The notes beneath the pieces were generated by a model, which saw nothing but the letters and a program-made list of their open reading frames with translations, was not told the DNA's origin and ran no database searches. Source: a virus. Taken from it: a DNA stretch of 21,294 bases. Numbering within the stretch: position 1 is the first letter of the stretch; every line of letters starts with the position of its first letter. A program made the position numbers and the translations under genes. Below, one piece after another: positions 2,075 through 21,294 of the stretch. Location of the stretch: positions 1 to 21,294 of the IMG/VR virus record IMGVR_UViG_3300042924_007074, one strand, 5' to 3'.

Positions 2075-2388
2075 AAGCTAAATTTATATACTCCATCTTC
2101 AATTTGAACCTCTAAAATTCCGCCATTTTCAATTATCTTTTCAATTTGTTCTGGTTGGAATTTAATGTACTCAGGTTCCATAAAGATTTTACTTGCTTGA
2201 GTCAAAGACAGTTTGGACCCTGTTAATAAATTTAAGACAGTTTCGTTTTCACATTCCACAATGGATGGGTATTGGCCACCAACCGTTACAATGACTTTAT
2301 CTCCGATTTCTACTTTGTCTAAAGACACAATATATGGTCTCTCATCGACCATTACCAATTTAACTTTTTGTTTTTCATTATCACTCAT
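2071..2388 (-). CDS. Hypothetical protein
   Basis: A 105-residue acidic protein of unrecognised family. The N-terminal half contains strands with the pattern IVSLDKVEIGDKVIVTVGG, like a small beta-barrel (KOW or SH3-like) that could bind nucleic acid or a partner. The C-terminal half is helical and ends in a strand. There is no Cys cluster and no membrane segment. The ATG overlaps the stop of the upstream 2385-2696 gene, and its own stop overlaps the microprotein start, so it is central in a tightly coupled operon. Confidence 0.7.
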   Translation of the reverse strand: MSDNEKQKVKLVMVDERPYIVSLDKVEIGDKVIVTVGGQYPSIVECENETVLNLLTGSKLSLTQASKIFMEPEYIKFQPEQIEKIIENGGILEVQIEDGVYKFSL

Positions 2389-2696
2389 AACATAAACCCG
2401 TACATTTGTGATACGGCTCCCATATATTTTTTTAGATTTATTACAGCCTGTTTGAAATCCACTCTTGGGGTTTCATTGAATCTTTCTGACAGCTGATCAT
2501 CAGTTAAAGTTTTATCACAACTATCATAGATGTCCTTAAGCATCTGGAGATAAATCTCTTCTTTACTATAAGTATCATCAATTTTCTTTTCAACCACTTG
2601 ACCCTCTAACTCAACACAATAATCAATCAATTCCTGTACTTCAGGATGATCCATTAGCTGTGTATTAGTCTTGAATATTTGTCTTATGTTCTTCAT
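2385..2696 (-). CDS. Hypothetical helical protein
   Basis: A largely alpha-helical, acidic protein of 103 residues when started at MKNIRQIFK (2696). The frame opens 11 codons earlier at 2729, but that start would lie deeper in the upstream zinc-ribbon gene; the chosen start still overlaps it by 32 bases. An alternative start at 2654 (MDHPEVQEL) would avoid overlap. Heptad-like segments (LEGQVVEKKIDD, ICYLQ-type spacing around residues 45-65) suggest a coiled coil or a small helical bundle. No family recognised and no catalytic motif seen. Confidence 0.65.
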   Translation of the reverse strand: MKNIRQIFKTNTQLMDHPEVQELIDYCVELEGQVVEKKIDDTYSKEEIYLQMLKDIYDSCDKTLTDDQLSERFNETPRVDFKQAVINLKKYMGAVSQMYGFML

Positions 2697-3051
2697 AGTG
2701 TTTATTACATAATGTTGTATGCCAACCAATATTTGTTCTTAATTCTCCTTTTTCACCGCAGGTCTCACAAGTTTCATAACTTAGATTTTCAGCCTCACTT
2801 ATTCTTTTATGAACTTCAGTTGATGCTCCGTTAATATAAAATCTAAGTCCACCAAATTTTTCTTTTACTTGACAAGTTTGTTTATCCCACCCTAATTCAA
2901 TAAGATCAGTAATCAGATCCTTAATTAGTGGATACCAACCAGATCCAACACTAAAAAACCCTGAATCTTTGATTGGACCTCTGTCTGAATGAAACCCATT
3001 TTCAAGTCCACCTATGGATTCTAAAAACTCATTCATTTGTTCTTTAGTCAT
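2665..3051 (-). CDS. Conserved phage zinc-ribbon protein
   Basis: A 128-residue protein of a type I recall in many phage genomes. The middle has GWYPLIKDLITDLIELGW followed by VKEKFGGLRFY (about residues 39-72). The C-terminus carries a probable zinc site with C95, C98, C115 and H118. Function is unknown; the zinc ribbon suggests binding to nucleic acid or protein. Its ATG lies inside the end of the preceding 26-residue microprotein, implying translational coupling. The family assignment is from memory; the zinc ligands are visible directly. Confidence 0.75.
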   Translation of the reverse strand: MTKEQMNEFLESIGGLENGFHSDRGPIKDSGFFSVGSGWYPLIKDLITDLIELGWDKQTCQVKEKFGGLRFYINGASTEVHKRISEAENLSYETCETCGEKGELRTNIGWHTTLCNKHYEEHKTNIQD

Positions 3052-4036: not shown

Positions 4037-4189
4037 TTATTTTAAAAATCTTAAATAATAAACTTCACACAAAAATAACAAAGCAAATACCCATCCTGAT
4101 AAAGAGTACCAATCTTCCAAAAACCAACTGAATCCAATATTGATTACTATTATTAGTAATAGTGGTACATAATAAATTCCTTTTTTCAT
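4037..4189 (-). CDS. Two-helix membrane microprotein, 50 aa
   Basis: Starting with ATG at 4189, which overlaps the ATPase stop as ATGA, a 50-residue frame reads MKKGIYYVPLLLIIVINIGF and on to LRFLK. Two hydrophobic segments (about residues 6-22 and 31-45) separated by an acidic turn (LEDWYSLSG) predict a helical hairpin in the membrane. It is the last gene before the promoter of the next transcript and has no obvious hairpin terminator of its own. No family recognised. Confidence 0.65.
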   Translation of the reverse strand: MKKGIYYVPLLLIIVINIGFSWFLEDWYSLSGWVFALLFLCEVYYLRFLK

Positions 4190-5184
4190 CTTCCAAATCC
4201 AACTTTTCCAGACCCTTTAATTGTTGGCGCCCTTTTTAACCCTTCAAGATTATCCATAACTTCTTCGAAATCCCTTCCCATAACAATAGTTGAAATTACA
4301 ACTTCTTTCAAGTGTGAAAGGGACATTCCTTCTGTTCTTTTCACCCATTCTTCAACATCAATACCTTTTATATCTTCTTCTGTCAACTTATGACGAATAT
4401 ATGCTTCACGAATATCATCGTTTGGAAGTTCTACTTTATATCGTCTATCGAAACGAGATGGTCTGTTGGTGATACGATCCTGTAATTTCTCAGGATAGTT
4501 AGTTGTTGCAATATAAACAACATCTTCAATTTGTTTTACACCATCCAAGATGTTTAATAATCTACTTGTTGAATGGCTATTCTCACCAGCAATTGAATCG
4601 ATATCCTCTAATAATACAATCAATGGTCGGTTAGGTTCGATCTTTCTGAAAGTCGCAATGAAATCCATAAAGTAATCAACATCGTCTTGGTCTTTAATAT
4701 TGATAATTATACCATCATTATCAATCAATTGTTTTGAAATCAACTGAATGATACCTGACTTACCACAACCTGGTTCACCGTACATTAGAATACCTCGTTT
4801 GTGAACAAAGTTATATTGTTTGTATTTGTCTCTACGATCCCAAAAGTTTTGGATGTCTTTTAAGATATCTGTAATCTCGTATGAAGGTAATTGATACAAC
4901 TCATCGGTCTTGAATGGTTGTTTCTTTAGTGTGTGTTGGTTTAGTTGTCTATTCCATACAACTTCATAGATACCTGACGGTACTTTTGGAACTGATGTAA
5001 ATGCCGGAACAAATTCCTCATCTTGTAATGTTCCCCAACATGTTGGTGAATTACTTACGGGTTTATCTTCCAATTCTAATTCATCATAAAAACCATCAGG
5101 TCTTGTTATTGTAACACTTTCTACAGTTTCCATATTAGAAAGTTCTTTCATATACATATTTATCATTTCTTCGGGTTCCATCAT
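4186..5184 (-). CDS. AAA+ ATPase, BCS1-like
   Basis: A 332-residue AAA+ ATPase. Residues 1-120 form a non-conserved N-terminal region. The AAA module has Walker A GEPGCGKS (136-143), Walker B LIVLLEDID (188-196), sensor 1 ATTN (226-229) and an arginine-finger region RPSRFDRR (241-248). The order and spacing resemble the BCS1 / FtsH-CDC48 group, which remodels or unfolds proteins as a hexamer. Similar small AAA ATPases of unknown role occur in many large phages. The C-terminus ends in a short Gly/Lys/Arg tail (GSGKVGFGR). It lies between two small genes with ATGA overlaps, one upstream (5181-5426) and one membrane microprotein downstream, which may be partners. Confidence 0.9.
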   Translation of the reverse strand: MMEPEEMINMYMKELSNMETVESVTITRPDGFYDELELEDKPVSNSPTCWGTLQDEEFVPAFTSVPKVPSGIYEVVWNRQLNQHTLKKQPFKTDELYQLPSYEITDILKDIQNFWDRRDKYKQYNFVHKRGILMYGEPGCGKSGIIQLISKQLIDNDGIIINIKDQDDVDYFMDFIATFRKIEPNRPLIVLLEDIDSIAGENSHSTSRLLNILDGVKQIEDVVYIATTNYPEKLQDRITNRPSRFDRRYKVELPNDDIREAYIRHKLTEEDIKGIDVEEWVKRTEGMSLSHLKEVVISTIVMGRDFEEVMDNLEGLKRAPTIKGSGKVGFGR

Positions 5185-5707: not shown

Positions 5708-5739
5708 AAAAAAAGGTGACTCCATCAATGGGAGTCACC
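5708..5739 (-). terminator. Terminator that contains the RNA ligase stop codon
   Basis: GGTGACTCC (5715-5723) and GGAGTCACC (5731-5739) form a perfect 9-bp stem with a 7-base loop, followed on the minus strand by a T-run (5714-5708). The TGA of the ligase gene (5727-5725) lies in the loop, so the stem also encodes the last residues of the protein. Confidence 0.85.
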
Positions 5740-6846
5740 AACATTATTTTTCTCTCCGTAGATTAAGTAATCAGGATTGATCACTTTTGCTACTTTGTGA
5801 CGCTCACCACTCAAGCATTTCACAACAATACCTTCATGCGGAACTTTGGTACCTTCAATAAAGTTACCGAACACAAAACTATCTTGTATTTCTTTATCCC
5901 AAGGACCTGTGTATAACAAATCTACTTTAGGTAAATCTAACTCGTCGAACACACCTCTTTCAGTTATGAACTCGCGGTAAACACCATCAACCTCAACATC
6001 AAATCCTGCGAAACGAATATCAGTCAACCCATAGTCGTAATTCTTTTGGATTCCATGTCCGTAAATCTCACCGTATATAACAATACCTGATCCCAATCTT
6101 TCAGGAGTGTAGTATAGTTTTACATAATCCCATAATTTTTTTTGGATATCGTAATCTTCCGCAATAGTTCTCCACACATCAGTAGAGTAAAAACCTTGAG
6201 AAGTTGATCCTTTTTCAACATTGTGTGATCCGTAAACATATTCAAACTCAACCCATTCATTACCAAAGAATTTTCTAACACGATCCCAAATACTTAATCT
6301 TTTCTTTCTTACAATACCATAACGAGCGTTTGTTCCGTGTATTTTACGAGTGATAACAACCTTATCTTCTTCGGTGAATAACTCAGGAACATTCTTCAAG
6401 TTAGGAAACTTATAATAAACATGGAAGTTAGGATTTTGGTGGTATTTAACCTTTCTACCTCCAACACTCATTTCAACCATCTTAACTGGTGGTTCGTATT
6501 TGAAAACCTTAAGTAATTCCATACAATCAGATCCTTCATATCTGTATTTTTCAGGAACACTCCCTATTGGTATTATCAAACATTCAGAATAAACTCCACG
6601 AAGTTTCACGGTTCTTACTCGTTGTCCTTTTCTCAAGTAATTAGTCACACCCAAACCATCAGAAAGTTTCAATGGTATTACAGCGTCGGTAGTCGCAACA
6701 ACAACCAAATCAGTTACTTTATATTCACCTTTTTTAACTATTGCATTCCAACCACCAACTACCGCAAGTTCTATGTTATCTGCTCTTTCTATTGGTCTTA
6801 TCTCACCGATCACACCAACATAACATACACTATTTAAATTTTCCAT
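5725..6846 (-). CDS. RNA ligase with N-terminal OB-fold domain (Rnl5/DraRnl-like)
   Basis: A 373-residue ATP-dependent polynucleotide ligase. The N-terminal domain (about 5-95) looks like the OB-fold of Deinococcus RNA ligase: an ADNIELA segment, a Gly-Trp strand and LRGVYSECL. The nucleotidyltransferase domain follows. Motif I is KIHGTN with the adenylated lysine at K168, motif III FEYVYGSHN (201-209), motif IIIa IVIYGEIYG (255-263), motif IV EGIVVKC (338-344) and motif V around K351-K354. Known relatives seal nicks with RNA on the 3'-OH side. The gene follows the cREC gene by 6 bases, and its stop lies in a terminator loop. This context suggests repair of tRNA or mRNA broken during host defence. 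Confidence 0.88.
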   Translation of the reverse strand: MENLNSVCYVGVIGEIRPIERADNIELAVVGGWNAIVKKGEYKVTDLVVVATTDAVIPLKLSDGLGVTNYLRKGQRVRTVKLRGVYSECLIIPIGSVPEKYRYEGSDCMELLKVFKYEPPVKMVEMSVGGRKVKYHQNPNFHVYYKFPNLKNVPELFTEEDKVVITRKIHGTNARYGIVRKKRLSIWDRVRKFFGNEWVEFEYVYGSHNVEKGSTSQGFYSTDVWRTIAEDYDIQKKLWDYVKLYYTPERLGSGIVIYGEIYGHGIQKNYDYGLTDIRFAGFDVEVDGVYREFITERGVFDELDLPKVDLLYTGPWDKEIQDSFVFGNFIEGTKVPHEGIVVKCLSGERHKVAKVINPDYLIYGEKNNVGDSH

Positions 6847-6852
6847 TTTCTA

Positions 6853-7269
6853 TTATTTTTCTACTATATAGTCCCACTCAAATCTAATACAGTTCTGTTT
6901 CAAACGATTGATATGTCGGTAGTTATTAATATACCCAGTCATATTACCACTTCCAATTGCGTTGTGTGAATGAACAACAACATCAACAACTGGTTTACCA
7001 TTCATCCACTCATTAACTAACCACTTAACACAATCCATACCTGTTTTTTCTGTAATGTTATTGTAATCAATTGTATAATTTTTATAAACATTTCTTTTCC
7101 ATTCATCAATTGCAGTGTCCCCCAAATCGTGATCTAACGAAATTAGTTCAATATTATTCAAACCAATCTCATTTATTTTTTCCACGAACTCTTCGTAAGA
7201 ACGAACAACAATCCAATCTTTATCAACAGGTGTTCGAACATCATCTAAATATATTTTTTTATCTTTCAT
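6853..7269 (-). CDS. Cyclic-phosphate processing receiver-domain protein (cREC)
   Basis: A 138-residue protein matching the cREC family, a receiver-like fold predicted to handle cyclic-phosphate RNA ends and found in RNA repair and conflict systems. Visible motifs are LDD (8-10), SLDHDLG (44-50), TGMDCVKWL (76-84) and VHSHNAIGSGNM (99-110), in the family's usual order and length. These acidic and His residues would form the predicted active site. It sits 6 bases upstream of the RNA ligase gene and is surely cotranscribed with it, which supports a role in preparing ends for sealing. No enzymatic activity has been established that I know of, so the chemistry is a prediction. Confidence 0.8.
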   Translation of the reverse strand: MKDKKIYLDDVRTPVDKDWIVVRSYEEFVEKINEIGLNNIELISLDHDLGDTAIDEWKRNVYKNYTIDYNNITEKTGMDCVKWLVNEWMNGKPVVDVVVHSHNAIGSGNMTGYINNYRHINRLKQNCIRFEWDYIVEK

Positions 7270-7274
7270 AATTT

Positions 7275-7634
7275 TTATAAACTTTTTATATCAGAATCAT
7301 CTAACTCATCTTTGGAATCTTTCATTCTTAAATTTGTTTCTTCAACATACTTTCTAATTAATTTAAAAATTTCTTTAATATCTGTAAACTCTGACACAGG
7401 ACTATCGAGTCTACCTGGTAAAAATATCAAAGTAAACCCATGATTTCCTTCAAATGTTTCAGTTACTTTTTTACCGCAGATTTCATCAATATAAACCCAA
7501 GGAAAGTTACCCACAAGTTTAACTTCAATTCCAATTTTTTTCAATCTATCCACAAAGACCTTGATCTTATCACCAGTCAATTTTGTAGGGTCGTTTTCTT
7601 TTTCTATATAAGTTCCAAATTTAGTTTCTTTCAT
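7275..7634 (-). CDS. Conserved phage hypothetical protein
   Basis: A 119-residue protein of unknown function, start chosen at ATG 7634 (MKETKFGTY) because it overlaps the stop of the upstream membrane gene as ATGA. A start 30 codons earlier would lie deep in that gene. Features are a strand IEVKLVGNFPWVYIDEICGK, an HGFTLIFLPG segment and a C-terminal helix EIFKLIRKYVEE; the tail is acidic and probably disordered. I recall similar GN-x-PW-x-Y proteins in Bacteroidetes phages, with no known role. It precedes cREC by 5 bases, so it belongs to the same transcript. Confidence 0.7.
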   Translation of the reverse strand: MKETKFGTYIEKENDPTKLTGDKIKVFVDRLKKIGIEVKLVGNFPWVYIDEICGKKVTETFEGNHGFTLIFLPGRLDSPVSEFTDIKEIFKLIRKYVEETNLRMKDSKDELDDSDIKSL

Positions 7635-7894
7635 TTCATTAACTCCAAAAATATAATAACAACTACAGACCCAAACAAATATCCAAGCCCTGAACATAAA
7701 GCCAATTTTAATCTTTCTTTCCAAGTCTTTGACTCAACCATAAATCCCACGAAAGGTAATGATAAAAATGGTCCGATGAATGCAAAAAATAACATTCCAA
7801 GATAATTCTTGTCGGCAACTACAGTAATATAAAATGTGCTTCCAATCTCTAATATAAGAGCAGATAAGAAAACAATCAAATACCTTTTAATCAT
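7631..7894 (-). CDS. Small membrane protein, about three helices
   Basis: An 87-residue hydrophobic protein with three predicted membrane segments (about residues 5-26, 31-52 and 64-83) and a polar loop with SKTWKERLK between the second and third. The Glu and Tyr in the first helix (LEIGSTFYI) resemble small integral proteins seen in phage genomes, but I cannot name a family. Both ends overlap neighbours as ATGA, so it is translated with them. It could be a holin or a host-membrane modifier; nothing in the sequence decides this. Confidence 0.7.
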   Translation of the reverse strand: MIKRYLIVFLSALILEIGSTFYITVVADKNYLGMLFFAFIGPFLSLPFVGFMVESKTWKERLKLALCSGLGYLFGSVVVIIFLELMK

Positions 7895-8112: not shown

Positions 8113-8308
8113 CTTTTAATCTTTTTTTTGATTCTTCTTTTAAACCTCTTAATAAACCTTTTTTATATGTAATATAATCTTCCTCGTATTTTGATGGCCA
8201 AGCCACAAGATAAGAATTATTATTATCTTTTGGATAAGTATAAAAATCTTTTTCTAATCTTTTTTTTGTTTTTCTTGGTAATCTAAACTTTTTCTTTTTT
8301 TGAGCCAT
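8102..8308 (-). CDS. Small basic phage protein
   Basis: A 68-residue, strongly basic protein. The start at ATG 8308 (MAQKKKKFRLPRK) is preferred over one 9 codons earlier because it lies near the end of the upstream gene; the overlap is 26 bases. The N-terminal KKKKF-x-LPRKTKKRLEKD, then YPKDNNNSYLVAWPS and an EDY helix, follow a pattern I recall in small phage proteins of unknown role. The charge suggests nucleic-acid binding. Confidence 0.65.
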   Translation of the reverse strand: MAQKKKKFRLPRKTKKRLEKDFYTYPKDNNNSYLVAWPSKYEEDYITYKKGLLRGLKEESKKRLKDEK

Positions 8309-8465
8309 AACATTCAAACTTTTTATCTTTAACATTCCACAAATCTTTTACCCCCTCTGTCATATGACAATTGTGTCTTTTTCCAGTCCTACGACCGAAA
8401 TCAACAATCATATCATTATGACGATTACGAATTAAGTGTGGACATTCTTTACAGGGGGTTTTCAC
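8283..8465 (-). CDS. Small Cys/His protein, possible DUF6283-like
   Basis: A 60-residue protein starting at GTG 8465. It has C5, C8 and H10 near the N-terminus, then H32-x-C33-H34 and C52, which could bind one metal ion. The arrangement (CxxCPH, a basic loop, NCH, a late Cys) resembles small phage proteins of the DUF6283 type; that match is from memory. GTG is favoured as start because TACCTTTG lies exactly 4 bases upstream, the same geometry as two ATG genes in this window. It heads the operon that runs through cREC to the RNA ligase. Confidence 0.65.
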   Translation of the reverse strand: MKTPCKECPHLIRNRHNDMIVDFGRRTGKRHNCHMTEGVKDLWNVKDKKFECYGSKKEKV

Positions 8466-8469
8466 CTTA

Positions 8470-8477
8470 CAAAGGTA
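8470..8477 (-). promoter_or_regulatory. Bacteroidetes -7 element for the cREC/ligase operon
   Basis: TACCTTTG reads on the minus strand at 8477-8470 and ends 4 bases before the GTG start. The upstream bases TTTCT are shared with the promoter at 14019-14026. No clear TTG -33 element is seen at the expected distance, so strength or sigma dependence may differ. Confidence 0.55.
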
Positions 8478-8507
8478 AGAAATTAATTTGAATGGGTGAA
8501 AATTATT

Positions 8508-8712: not shown

Positions 8713-11172
8713 TTACTTGATTATTTGTTTTAAGGTGTTAGTTGAAAACTCGTTTGATGTTACTTTTATATAATACACTCCTGACACAATATTTAACATA
8801 TCAAGATTATATAAATTAATACCCCCTTTTATTTCAATTTCTTTTTCTAAAACAATTGAGCCTTTTGAATCTTGAATTTCAATTTTACCATTTCCGATCA
8901 TGTTTTTATTGTTCAATACAACTTGAAAAGATCCTGAACTTGGATTTGGAAATGTTGAAAAATATCCTTTTGAATTTCCATTACAAATAACATTGATCGG
9001 TCCGTATTCATCGCTAACACCATCAATATCATATTGTATTAATTTATAATAATTGTTTCCGTCAATTGCATTTTCATCTTTTGTTGTATAACTTAATTCT
9101 TGAGTTGAGTTGCCAGCAGAATTCAAGGTTGTTAATTTAGACCAATTTTCACCATCTCTTGATTTAAGAACATCAAAGTGAGATGTGTTATGTTCAGTAG
9201 CAGTTCTCCAATTTAATGTGATAAGATTATCATTACAAGTTCCGTCAAATGATAATAGTTCAACAGGTAATGCTCCATTTGTTATTATATTAAAAAATCT
9301 AACTTGAGTTCCACAGTTTGATGAATTTGAAACTGTGACTCTAACAGATCCATTGGTTGTTGTTTGAGGCCAATAAAAAGATATTGATGGTGTATTAGAG
9401 TTTGGTATGTTATTCCATAAAGGTGCGGTAACTGACTCTGTGTATGCCCATTGATATGTTGCGTTTGGGACAGGTGTAATAGAATATGTTTCTTGAGTTC
9501 CCGCAATAATTGTGTTGTTCCCCGACACTGTGGAAACAAATCCAACTGAAGGGTTTACGGTTATTGTTGTTGATGTCGCATTCGAACACCCATTTGATGA
9601 CACCGTTAGTGTATATGATTGATTACTTGTTGGTGATGCAAAAGGACTTGGTGCATTTGGATTTGTTAGTCCTGTAGATGGAGACCATGAGTATGTTACT
9701 GGTGATCCTCCAGTATTCCCCACTGATGAAATCAATTGTGTGTTAGATCCCGAACAAATTGTGTTTGTTACTGAACTTACTGAAACTGTTGGTGTTGGAT
9801 TCACCGTTATGGTTGTTGATGCACATCCTGAACTAAATAAACTTGAATTATAATTTCTAGCAAAATAAGTAGTGGTGGTAGTAGGTGAAACCGTGATGGA
9901 ATTTCCAACTCCGATTTGAGTTACCCCACATCCATTAATATACCAATAAACCGTTCCCACTCCACCATTAGCGGTTAATGTTGTTGATGTTCCGTTACAA
10001 ACAATATTTGAAGTTGCAGATATTGAAGTTGGGTTAGGGGGTGGTGGTGTTGAACAAATCAATCCAACCTGAAAGGCGCTACTTGAGTTGTATCCATGAA
10101 CTAATATATAGTAGTTTAGTCCAACGGTTGATGTCCATTGATAAGATGCTGATGATGTGGCACATGTTGGCCCATAATCATCGTTACCACCAACGCAAGT
10201 TAAAGATGAACAATTAGGACCACTAAAAACCGAGATCTTACTATCCCAAGCAGTATTACAAAGATAAGCCGTCATAATCTGTCCATTTCCAGGAACCATA
10301 TACCAAACTCCAGGTTGGGTTTGTGAGACATTACAAAAACCATTTTCTCCATTTCCGCTATTAGTGGAATTGACCGTAGTTCCGGATACAATTTGACCAC
10401 ATGAGATAGAAGTTGCGTTACAAACTAAATCATTTACAGGTGCAGCAGGGGCTGAACAAGAAAGACATTCAATCGTTGTCGTTCCACAATTAATTGCAGT
10501 CCCACATGATGAATTAGTATTGTAATGAATATAATAAGTCCCTGATATTGGTGCGGTCCATGTTAAAGGTGAAAAACCAGTAGCAACCACAGTTCCGTTA
10601 TAGGATGAATGTCTTACAGTAATGTAGCCACCTAAATTATATGTAGATCTATATTGTCCTCCCGATACAATATTAAAAATGGTATTATATTCTTCTTGAT
10701 AAGTGCAAGTGCTAATTGTATGAACACCAGGTATAGATGGTGCAGTTAATGATCCATAGGCGTATAAATTAACACAACCTCCTCCTCCACCACCAGAACA
10801 CGAAGCAACACAAGTATAACCACCTGTAGTTGCGGTTCCTGTTACGGGTTGTATTGTATTTAGTAGAATTGTTCCTGTGTTATTTCTTATTTGAACTCTC
10901 ATTTCTGAAGGAAAAGTTCCTGATGTTGTTCTCCATACTCTAATGATTTGACCTGATGATGCTGTGAAATTAAAAATTAATGGTCCATAACCACTTGTGA
11001 AGGTTGATCCAAGATTAGTTAATACAGTTATTCCATTTACACTAACGGAAACTCTTCCTCCATTCCATCCATCACCCCAAGTATCGGTTAAATAGATTGA
11101 ATGAGTGCAAGATTGTGATAAAGTGACGAAACTTGTAAAAAAAACAAAAATCGATAATAATAAATTCTTCAT
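8713..11172 (-). CDS. Secreted multidomain protein with T9SS type A sorting domain
   Basis: An 819-residue exported protein. Residues 1-21 form a Sec signal peptide (hydrophobic core LLLSIFVFFTSFV). Next come Cys-paired beta domains: a WGDGWNGG domain (about 22-123), a GGGGGG linker (127-132), a second domain ending in GTYYIHYNTNSSCGT, and a third starting NDLVCNATSISCGQ. Then follow Ig/PKD-like repeats rich in Thr and Ser, and an ALPVELLSF domain. The last 80 residues (FPNPSSG at 741-747, then SGVYYIKV) form the C-terminal signal recognised by the Bacteroidetes type IX system, which is cleaved as the cargo passes the outer membrane. The protein should end up on the host surface or outside the cell. 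It is visibly less AT-rich than its neighbours, suggesting capture from a host. Confidence 0.88.
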   Translation of the reverse strand: MKNLLLSIFVFFTSFVTLSQSCTHSIYLTDTWGDGWNGGRVSVSVNGITVLTNLGSTFTSGYGPLIFNFTASSGQIIRVWRTTSGTFPSEMRVQIRNNTGTILLNTIQPVTGTATTGGYTCVASCSGGGGGGCVNLYAYGSLTAPSIPGVHTISTCTYQEEYNTIFNIVSGGQYRSTYNLGGYITVRHSSYNGTVVATGFSPLTWTAPISGTYYIHYNTNSSCGTAINCGTTTIECLSCSAPAAPVNDLVCNATSISCGQIVSGTTVNSTNSGNGENGFCNVSQTQPGVWYMVPGNGQIMTAYLCNTAWDSKISVFSGPNCSSLTCVGGNDDYGPTCATSSASYQWTSTVGLNYYILVHGYNSSSAFQVGLICSTPPPPNPTSISATSNIVCNGTSTTLTANGGVGTVYWYINGCGVTQIGVGNSITVSPTTTTTYFARNYNSSLFSSGCASTTITVNPTPTVSVSSVTNTICSGSNTQLISSVGNTGGSPVTYSWSPSTGLTNPNAPSPFASPTSNQSYTLTVSSNGCSNATSTTITVNPSVGFVSTVSGNNTIIAGTQETYSITPVPNATYQWAYTESVTAPLWNNIPNSNTPSISFYWPQTTTNGSVRVTVSNSSNCGTQVRFFNIITNGALPVELLSFDGTCNDNLITLNWRTATEHNTSHFDVLKSRDGENWSKLTTLNSAGNSTQELSYTTKDENAIDGNNYYKLIQYDIDGVSDEYGPINVICNGNSKGYFSTFPNPSSGSFQVVLNNKNMIGNGKIEIQDSKGSIVLEKEIEIKGGINLYNLDMLNIVSGVYYIKVTSNEFSTNTLKQIIK

Positions 11173-12971: not shown

Positions 12972-13628
12972 TTATCCCACAACTCCAACCAAATCATCAA
13001 GGTGGTGATCGTTACTCAAATCAGATCCAATTTCACGACGATCCATCATGTGAACTATCTCAGTTATTTTGTATGGATACATATTGTTACCATCCATACC
13101 AACATCCAATCGTTTTCCGTTACCCCATTTATTTTGAGCGGACAAATGAACATGTCCATGAAGATGGATTACACCTTTATTTAATCCGTGCCAACTTTGG
13201 AGTGGGTAATGACATAAAACAAAATCTACATCACAAATATTAACCTCAAGATAATGTTGAGCAGATAAAAATCTGTTTTGGATTTCTTGTCTATTTTTTA
13301 AAATGTTCTGATCGTGATTACCCAAGACTAAGTGAATGTTTTTACAAACTAAACGATCTAGAAATTGTTCAATTCTTTCAAACCCACCAAAAGCAAGATC
13401 ACCTAAATGAATCAAAGTATCATTTGGGCCAACTTTTGAGTTTATGTTGTTCACAATTGTAACATCCATTTCATCAAGATCTCGGAAGTCTCGAGTTGAG
13501 TTTACGGGAATATCACCTTCTTGTGTTCGCCAGTTGGTAACACCTCGACAGATATTTTTGTGATGGTAGTGAGTATCAGATGTGATCCACACTACACCAG
13601 TTGTAAGTAATTTATCAAAGTTTTTCAT
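12972..13628 (-). CDS. Calcineurin-type metallophosphoesterase
   Basis: A 218-residue dinuclear metallophosphoesterase. Metal-binding motifs appear in order: SDTH (D18, H20), GDLAF (D77), GNHD (N104, H105), a CHYPLQSW segment (H140) and GHVH (158-161). The family hydrolyses phosphomonoesters or diesters, including 3'-phosphate and 2',3'-cyclic phosphate RNA ends in bacterial Pnkp. Its ATG overlaps the stop of the upstream P-loop kinase gene as ATGA, so kinase and phosphatase are made together. That pairing suggests an end-healing pair. The substrate is inferred from context; many phages carry similar phosphoesterases of unknown role. Confidence 0.85.
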   Translation of the reverse strand: MKNFDKLLTTGVVWITSDTHYHHKNICRGVTNWRTQEGDIPVNSTRDFRDLDEMDVTIVNNINSKVGPNDTLIHLGDLAFGGFERIEQFLDRLVCKNIHLVLGNHDQNILKNRQEIQNRFLSAQHYLEVNICDVDFVLCHYPLQSWHGLNKGVIHLHGHVHLSAQNKWGNGKRLDVGMDGNNMYPYKITEIVHMMDRREIGSDLSNDHHLDDLVGVVG

Positions 13629-14014
13629 AATTTGATTTCAAAACGATTTTTCATTTGTTCTAATTTGTCTTCAGGAACTCCGTGTTCACTACTCCCTCCG
13701 TGTCTGTTTTCGATTACGATTGAAAATACCTTATACCCGTATTTTTTTGCCATCTCAAAATATGTTTCCATTTCCCATTCTTGAGTAAATGTGTTTGAAA
13801 CGACAATTTTTGGTATTTCTTTTATCATATCCATATAAACCATATCGTGACACCACTCGTGAGCCCATTTAATTTTTGAGCCATCAAATTTATATTCACC
13901 GTTCCCATCTATAAAAAACATATCGGCTTCATAATGTTCTCCACCCAAAGTTTTTGCAAATGTTGATTTACCACTACCTGGTATTCCTCTCACTAAATAA
14001 ATCATTTTTTCCAT
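13625..14014 (-). CDS. P-loop kinase, polynucleotide-kinase-like (N4BP2L1 type)
   Basis: A 129-residue kinase. Walker A is GIPGSGKST (10-18). EADMFF (29-34) has an acidic residue at D31 that could activate the substrate hydroxyl. The GEYKFD and AHEWC segments and VVSNTFT (71-77) follow the pattern of AAA_33 / N4BP2-like 5'-OH polynucleotide kinases. The C-terminal HGVP segment precedes a likely lid with R124. The known reaction of close families is ATP-dependent phosphorylation of 5'-OH nucleic acid. It overlaps the phosphoesterase gene by ATGA. The start is fixed by TACCTTTG lying 4 bases upstream, implying a leaderless transcript. Confidence 0.8.
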   Translation of the reverse strand: MEKMIYLVRGIPGSGKSTFAKTLGGEHYEADMFFIDGNGEYKFDGSKIKWAHEWCHDMVYMDMIKEIPKIVVSNTFTQEWEMETYFEMAKKYGYKVFSIVIENRHGGSSEHGVPEDKLEQMKNRFEIKL

Positions 14015-14018
14015 ATCA

Positions 14019-14026
14019 CAAAGGTA
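14019..14026 (-). promoter_or_regulatory. Bacteroidetes -7 element for the kinase/phosphatase operon
   Basis: TACCTTTG reads on the minus strand at 14026-14019, 4 bases before the ATG. The preceding TTTCT matches the promoter at 8470-8477. Upstream is a T-rich tract rather than a clear TTG, partly belonging to the terminator at 14043-14067. Confidence 0.6.
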
Positions 14027-14042
14027 AGAAAAAAAACGGCAT

Positions 14043-20254: not shown

Positions 20255-20432
20255 GACTTATATATTTTACTGTATTTCCTAAACTAAACCCTAAATCCCA
20301 AGCATCAATTACTTTGATTGCTTCGTAAGGGTTATTTTCTCCTCCGTAATGTTGAGGATGATTTACTTGTTCTTTTTGTGGTGAAGGACATTGACAAAGT
20401 CCAGTACCACCACATACACATTGTTTATCCAT
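20163..20432 (-). CDS. DUF3310 protein with N-terminal Cys cluster
   Basis: An 89-residue protein. Residues 24-88 form a DUF3310 domain, seen in many phages and sometimes called nucleotide-kinase-like: VNHPQHYGG, IKVIDAWDLGFSLGN, VKYISRAGKK and EDLRKALWYL are all characteristic. Its biochemical role is not known to me. A short N-terminal extension carries C5, C7, C13 and C15 in a C-x-C-x5-C-x-C arrangement, a probable metal site. The ATG overlaps the glutamine synthetase stop as TAATG, so it is translated after that enzyme. Confidence 0.88.
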   Translation of the reverse strand: MDKQCVCGGTGLCQCPSPQKEQVNHPQHYGGENNPYEAIKVIDAWDLGFSLGNTVKYISRAGKKGKDKELEDLRKALWYLQHHIQTLEK

Positions 20433-21294
20433 TACTCTTCTCTATATTCTTTTAATAATTCTTCATTGGACATAGTTCCATACTTTTCACTAAGACCGTT
20501 TAAATTAACATCTTTATTGATCATAGTTTTTGTATCATAAAGTAGTTGAGCTACATATAATGAATTAACGATCTCACGAACAATTTTATATGGATCTGCA
20601 TTTGATCCTGGTCTTCTATCTTCAACATATCCTTTCCATTCTTTTGCTGTGTCCTGTGGAACTCTAATTGATGCTCCACGATCAGATACACCCCAACTAA
20701 ATTTATCAATTGCCTGTGTCTCATATTCACCAGTCAAACGAAGGTTATTGTTTGATCCGTAAGCTTTGATATGATCTTCGTGTCTTGATTCAAATGCGTT
20801 AAATAGTGACATGAAGTATTCTTCGTTACCATCAAATCTCATCATGTCTGTTGAGAAGTTTGTGTGAAGTCCTGATCCATTCCACTCTCCGTGTGTGATT
20901 GGTTTTGGGTGAAGTTCAATGTGATAACCGTACTTCTCAGCAATCTTAAATAGGAAATATCTAGTCATCCAAAGATCATCTCCGCCTTGTAATTTTCCTT
21001 TTGAAAAAACTTGGTATTCCCACTGACCTAAAGCAACCTCAGCATTTGTTCCTGTAATATCAATACCATAGTTTAAACACATATTCAAATGTTCCTCAAC
21101 AAATGGACGACCAACAACATTATGACCTACACCACAGTAGTACTCACCTTGTCCTTTAAGGATGTTTCTCTTGTGACCCAAAATGTTTCCATTAACTTCT
21201 TCTCGAATAAAATATTCTTGTTCAAAACCAAACCAAAGATCTTCAAATCCTTCACCAATACTAGATCTTTTATTCGATTCATGGGGTGTTCCAT
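20432..21294 (-). CDS. Glutamine synthetase, eukaryotic type (GSII), 5' end outside window
   Basis: The frame runs from the window edge to TAA at 20432, giving 287 residues; the N-terminal beta-grasp part is missing, and an apparent TTG start at 21181 is internal. Visible motifs are those of the GSII family: FGFEQEYF (near window residue 25, catalytic Glu), a CGVGHN-like segment, GTNAEVALGQWEYQV, a GDDLWMTRY helix, PKPITHGEWNGSGLHTNFST (ammonia and ATP site) and DRGASIRVPQ with EDRRPGSNADPY. The enzyme makes glutamine from glutamate, ammonia and ATP. All conserved active-site segments appear intact, so it is likely functional. GSII is typical of eukaryotes and some bacteria. In a phage it would be an auxiliary gene feeding nucleotide and amino-acid synthesis. 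Confidence 0.9.
   Translation of the reverse strand, partial: GTPHESNKRSSIGEGFEDLWFGFEQEYFIREEVNGNILGHKRNILKGQGEYYCGVGHNVVGRPFVEEHLNMCLNYGIDITGTNAEVALGQWEYQVFSKGKLQGGDDLWMTRYFLFKIAEKYGYHIELHPKPITHGEWNGSGLHTNFSTDMMRFDGNEEYFMSLFNAFESRHEDHIKAYGSNNNLRLTGEYETQAIDKFSWGVSDRGASIRVPQDTAKEWKGYVEDRRPGSNADPYKIVREIVNSLYVAQLLYDTKTMINKDVNLNGLSEKYGTMSNEELLKEYREE

Follow-up and report, generated by a model that had tools for sequence, protein, structure and literature searches.

In phage T4, Pnkp (pseT) and the RNA ligase Rnl1 repair tRNA as a counter to PrrC. Another companion of RNA ligases, the putative cyclic-phosphate-processing receiver-fold protein cREC, was named by Iyer et al. in 2021, who linked it with RNA ligases in operons of phages and cells and predicted that it opens cyclic ends (PMC7824862). 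A set comprising ligase, cREC, kinase and calcineurin-like phosphatase, found with a sirtuin, has also been described (PMC9503650). Here we consider a 21.3-kb IMG/VR virus record, IMGVR_UViG_3300042924_007074 (21,294 nucleotides, below called the window), in which the gene for an RNA ligase starts 6 bases after that for a cREC protein (gap 6847–6852) and a predicted end-healing kinase and phosphatase are encoded further upstream. The window is a further member of this known predicted system, and the link between its parts now has firmer quantitative backing. The novelty that a preliminary description of this DNA had attached to the ligase–cREC pairing was overstated, since cREC, its link with ligases and the four-gene cluster were all published as predictions in 2021–2022; its caution that the chemistry of cREC is predicted and not proven was correct, cREC being called experimentally uncharacterized in PMC9503650.

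The two adjacent open reading frames (ORFs) are genuine members of their families (Table 1), as that description had it. The cREC protein matches PF20274 at 1.5e-22, with 80.5 bits against a curated cut-off of 27. The ligase matches the Pfam profiles PF21189 (OB-fold, 9.9e-14) and PF09414 (RNA_ligase, 4e-13), and is covered almost from end to end by phrog_968 (RNA ligase; 2.3e-52, residues 2–366) and by TIGR02306 (DRB0094-type RNA ligase; 1e-31, residues 14–361), although its 110.1 bits miss the equivalog cut-off of the latter, 151.15 bits. Its sequence match in the PDB is NgrRnl (5e-13, residues 9–122). The nucleotidyltransferase motifs are kept in 91 relatives and, as expected of Rnl5/DraRnl, they are accompanied by an OB module. 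Judged by these profiles, the protein is a relative of Rnl5/DraRnl rather than an equivalog, on a divergent phage branch. The kinase is a stand-alone protein of 129 amino acids (aa) whose PGSGK, VSNTfTQeWE and ENRH motifs are kept in 72 relatives, and the D-x-H, GD, GNH and GHxH motifs of the phosphatase are kept in 139. The ORFs of these two enzymes share 4 bases, and 5.7 kb separates them from the cREC gene downstream, close to the 6 kb first given. In one branch of relatives, a gene of ~270–300 aa stands between kinase and phosphatase (L038 3781–4653, L046 2421–3323, L065 1296–2096).

Table 1. Features of the window, with positions counted from its first letter
Feature	Position	Strand	Details
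AAA ATPase	4186..5184	-	PF00004 6.4e-17; 3' of ligase in 43 loci, often syntenic
ATP-dependent RNA ligase, N-terminal OB-fold, Rnl5/DraRnl-like	5725..6846	-	373 aa; motif I RKIHGTN
cREC, predicted cyclic-phosphate-processing receiver-fold protein	6853..7269	-	138 aa
Small conserved protein	7275..7724	-	Directly upstream of cREC; kept in 79 loci, in most of them immediately before cREC
Small Cys/His-rich protein	8283..8465	-	First gene of run that leads into cREC; same position in 78 loci
TTTCTTACCTTTG with sigma-A -7 box TACCTTTG	8470..8482	-	4 nt ahead of GTG at 8465
Calcineurin-like phosphoesterase, predicted 3' end phosphatase	12972..13628	-	phrog_547 1.6e-45
P-loop kinase, predicted 5'-OH polynucleotide kinase	13625..14014	-	PF13671 1.6e-9; phrog_2071 1.9e-40; phrog_505 polynucleotide kinase 1.8e-8
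TTTCTTACCTTTG with sigma-A -7 box TACCTTTG	14019..14031	-	4 nt ahead of kinase ATG

The window is coded nearly all on the minus strand, and its relatives include records of up to 300 kb. The cultured-phage cREC closest to that of the window is from Flavobacterium phage immuto (67%); the source is a virus infecting Flavobacterium-like bacteria, in a group of Bacteroidota phages. Relatives of the ligase were fetched (80 sequences, 71–89% identical to it), and loci were counted for 47 distinct ligase proteins, each with at least 7 kb of upstream sequence. Typically the kinase comes first, then the phosphatase, several small genes and cREC; the ligase follows, in some cases after an 86-aa gene, and then come two small genes and the AAA ATPase. 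cREC is present in 31 of the 47 loci, the kinase in 38, the phosphatase in 41 and all three in 25, so that the ligase is not mostly found without cREC or the kinase pair. The 6-base gap is not conserved, as in most relatives 264–278 bases or more separate cREC from ligase. On the ligase tree the distribution of cREC is patchy, with 31 rows carrying class A, 9 carrying class B and 18 carrying none, and the well-supported branches force the ‘none’ label to change at least 11 times and the B label at least five times. Time and again the slot has thus lost its cREC, gained one or received a different one, which argues for a function at this place and, at the same time, for dispensability; cREC is an accessory that is often lost or swapped. 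The second subfamily (B), which stands in for the first upstream of this ligase in L048, L053–L056, L059, L062, L065, L075, L078 and L080, is 33–43% identical to the cREC of the window and terminates soon after helix 4.

The association extends beyond this phage group. A search for distant cREC proteins recovered the order kinase, Rnl1 (PF09511), cREC in L126, L136, L138 and L153, with ligase and cREC overlapping in the first three, an Rnl5-like ligase ahead of cREC in L091 and L175, and a ligase like that of the window ahead of cREC in L167. In a 484-kb phage (L106), cREC shares a 3-kb stretch with a PF09414 ligase and a complete HAD_PNKP kinase-phosphatase. Proximity outside the group was evaluated on whole records against a random-placement expectation, after the window type and its near-duplicates had been set aside. 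In 6 of 21 records cREC has a ligase no more than 2 kb away, where 0.61 would be expected (tail probability 2e-5, an approximate value like the others, as it assumes independence of records whose relatedness was removed only in part). The control, thymidylate synthase ThyA, is at chance level (1 of 26 against 0.54). The HAD_SAK RNA-repair phosphatase is found within 2 kb of cREC in 6 of 17 (0.36 expected). Other recurrent neighbours are a second calcineurin phosphatase and a CCA-adding-like nucleotidyltransferase. In cellular genomes, cREC matches are nearly all from Chryseobacterium. Of 78 chromosomal loci examined, most of them from this genus (L185–L264), 64 have a ligase with the T4 Rnl2 C-terminal domain after cREC. 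The vicinity there also holds a calcineurin phosphatase, an RNase T-type exonuclease and an RNase Z-like protein, with an RLIG1-like ligase in some cases. Conserved synteny supports the RNA repair module proposed at the outset, and so does the finding that cREC comes together with ligases of further families, in different gene orders, and also on chromosomes.

The best reading, in our judgement somewhat more likely than not, is that the four genes form an RNA end-healing and sealing kit with which a lytic Bacteroidota phage mends RNA cut by host defences. In the pathway that we infer, an endoribonuclease of the host or of a rival would cut tRNA or another RNA, leaving a 2',3'-cyclic phosphate and a 5'-OH. 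cREC would then convert the cyclic phosphate into a monoester by means of the receiver aspartate site D9/D10/D46 plus H47, D48, H100 and N103; the calcineurin-type phosphatase would strip the phosphate to give a 3'-OH, the P-loop kinase would add a phosphate at the 5' end, and the break would be sealed by the OB-fold Rnl5-like ligase. The cREC step seems helpful yet dispensable. The calcineurin-type phosphatase domains of bacterial Pnkp can open cyclic phosphates, and in many relatives that lack cREC the phosphatase may do so itself. An anticodon nuclease would be a plausible trigger. Several observations weigh against a repair kit of this kind. The ligase persists without cREC in 18 of the 58 classed tree rows, with the label changes given above, and 13 of 41 cREC-bearing records have no PF09414 or PF09511 ligase, although many of these may be fragments. 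In cultured phages cREC adjoins genes of NAD metabolism, and a ligase within 2 kb of it (1 of 8) is not above chance. Finally, nothing in the window points to the substrate, be it a tRNA gene, an anticodon nuclease or some other target. A search of the window for tRNA genes and Rfam RNAs as possible targets found none, and PADLOC assigned ligase and cREC to no defence system.

The predicted fold of cREC is a receiver-like Rossmannoid one. The AlphaFold2 (AF2) model has a predicted local distance difference test score (pLDDT) of 89 and a predicted template modelling score (pTM) of 0.81; its best structural match is to a receiver domain (Z 11.2, root-mean-square deviation 2.6 over 96 residues), and all 50 matches listed are receivers or receiver-containing proteins. 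No meaningful sequence relative of cREC was found in the PDB. The invariant residues are D9, D10, R12, D46, H47, D48, E74, K75, T76, G77, K82, H100, S101, N103, G106, N109 and N116, and the receiver aspartates among them, D9, D10 and D46, are invariant in sets of 35 and 22 sequences. The canonical receiver lysine near strand 5 was sought in these alignments, and no invariant lysine follows the H100–N116 stretch. In receiver domains, the acid pair and the strand-3 aspartate hold Mg2+. As these acids are kept in cREC, a metal-dependent reaction would be no less plausible than the metal-independent mechanism suggested in PMC9503650. A more specific reading is possible, and we put it forward tentatively. 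By this account cREC is a receiver-fold enzyme turned opener of RNA 2',3'-cyclic phosphates, a modular end-healing part that joined several RNA ligase families on separate occasions, in phages and in Chryseobacterium chromosomes, that is interchangeable with the cyclic phosphodiesterase activity of the phosphatase, and whose acidic triad suggests metal dependence. If it holds, the fold of a signalling domain has been made into an RNA repair enzyme with a new end-healing chemistry, and phages have another route by which to undo RNA-cutting host defences. The repeated pairing with different ligases offers compact gene sets for direct tests of the cREC prediction.

The main rival, which we consider unlikely, is that cREC acts on ADP-ribose or nucleotide cyclic phosphates and stands beside the ligase as a by-product of a shared counter-defence operon. 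It draws on the cultured phages, where cREC directly precedes a nicotinamide mononucleotide (NMN) adenylyltransferase and PnuC, with the same layout, unannotated, in a further case, and where cREC is also fused to Nudix beside Sir2. Genes of PF01467 lie within 2 kb of cREC in them more often than expected (3 of 10 against 0.26, tail probability 0.0015). Against this rival, Nudix genes come that close to cREC only at chance level, and in the group of the window the neighbours of cREC are ligase, kinase and phosphatase. Both uses of cREC are predicted in PMC9503650. In RNA repair, ADP-ribose cyclic phosphate (ADPr>p) comes from KptA. This gene was sought in related IMG/VR records and is absent from all 30 of 30, and a KptA-dependent route is accordingly rejected.

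A second alternative, hitchhiking, would make cREC and ligase mere neighbours among densely packed phage accessory genes, with no joint work. The operon does carry unrelated small genes, and the frequent gain and loss of cREC would fit. It is nevertheless improbable, as cREC is met again beside ligases of other families, in different orders and also on chromosomes, ThyA as the control is at chance, and two cREC subfamilies alternate at one locus. Slightly more doubtful again is a non-catalytic cREC, a receiver-like subunit that binds the phosphate end or a partner and regulates ligase or phosphatase, as might be read from a receiver fold without a conserved counterpart of the canonical lysine and from the early end of subfamily B, because the invariant D9, D10, D46, D48, H47, H100, N103 and N109 look catalytic or metal-binding and not structural.

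The preliminary description had also joined the two gene pairs into a distributed regulon under a shared promoter sequence. The exact 13-mer is literally present in both places, its only two copies in the window, one of them 1.2 kb upstream of cREC and ahead of the run of small genes that leads into it. It is kept, however, in just 2 of 39 distinct kinase upstream regions and 1 of 46 upstream regions of the gene that starts at 8465. What these regions do retain is the box TAnnTTTG (34 of 39 and 29 of 46), which in Flavobacterium psychrophilum is the sigma-A -7 box, at -12 to -5 (PMC9723704). Across 171 phage loci, this box stands 4–5 bases ahead of an ATG in 220 of 791 box–ORF pairs, preceding 62 protein families; the same spacing occurs in 5 of 202 pairs in 77 mostly Chryseobacterium chromosomal loci. 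The box is a general phage promoter, from which transcription is predicted to begin on the start codon or beside it, and not the sign of a repair regulon. The 13-mer was rejected as a regulon mark, being unconserved, with its generic box preceding 62 unrelated families, and the regulon falls with it. Predicted leaderless mRNAs appear as the standard promoter layout in these phages; in F. psychrophilum leaderless mRNAs amount to 5.5% (PMC9723704).

Of the remaining genes, the AAA ATPase downstream of the ligase weakly resembles IetA, and neither of the small proteins at 7275..7724 and 8283..8465 has a match in Pfam. A small ORF (2385–2729, minus strand) looks, when compared by eye, like the C-terminal portion (DUF7893-like) of the second calcineurin phosphatase (L094 7036–8004); searched alone against Pfam it gave no match. 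An 819-aa secreted-type protein (8713–11172, minus strand) has an Ig_7 domain and a type A C-terminal sorting domain of the type 9 secretion system (T9SS; TIGR04183, PF18962), and its gene has a GC skew opposite to that of the remaining window. It is perhaps a host-derived surface protein exported via the type 9 system of the host. Close to the contig end is a fragment of a glutamine-synthetase-like catalytic domain (20432–21181, minus strand; PF00120 1.9e-17, phrog_21628).

Compared with the T4 pair Pnkp and Rnl1, the window likewise has a kinase, an end phosphatase and an ATP-dependent RNA ligase that are predicted to act one after another; it differs in that the kinase is separate and not fused to a HAD-type 3' phosphatase, the phosphatase is calcineurin-like, the ligase is Rnl5-like and a cREC is added. 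The sirtuin neighbourhood of Escherichia phage V5 and Proteus phage Mydo (PMC9503650) resembles it in combining a T4-like tRNA ligase, cREC, a nucleotide kinase and sometimes a calcineurin-like phosphoesterase. In the window, a 21-kb fragment, the part of the ORFs that was searched with Pfam gave no match to SIR2, and the related records lack KptA. With DraRnl and NgrRnl (Rnl5) the ligase shares the N-terminal OB-fold module preceding the nucleotidyltransferase domain and a full-length match to TIGR02306, but it scores below the equivalog cut-off and forms a divergent phage branch. In the jumbo-phage and bacterial neighbourhoods of Iyer et al. 2021 (PMC7824862), too, a PF20274 cREC is operonically linked to RNA ligases and predicted to resolve cyclic 2',3' ends; the present locus differs in belonging to Bacteroidota phages, in its distinct Rnl5-like ligase, and in that the linkage has been tested statistically with a control.
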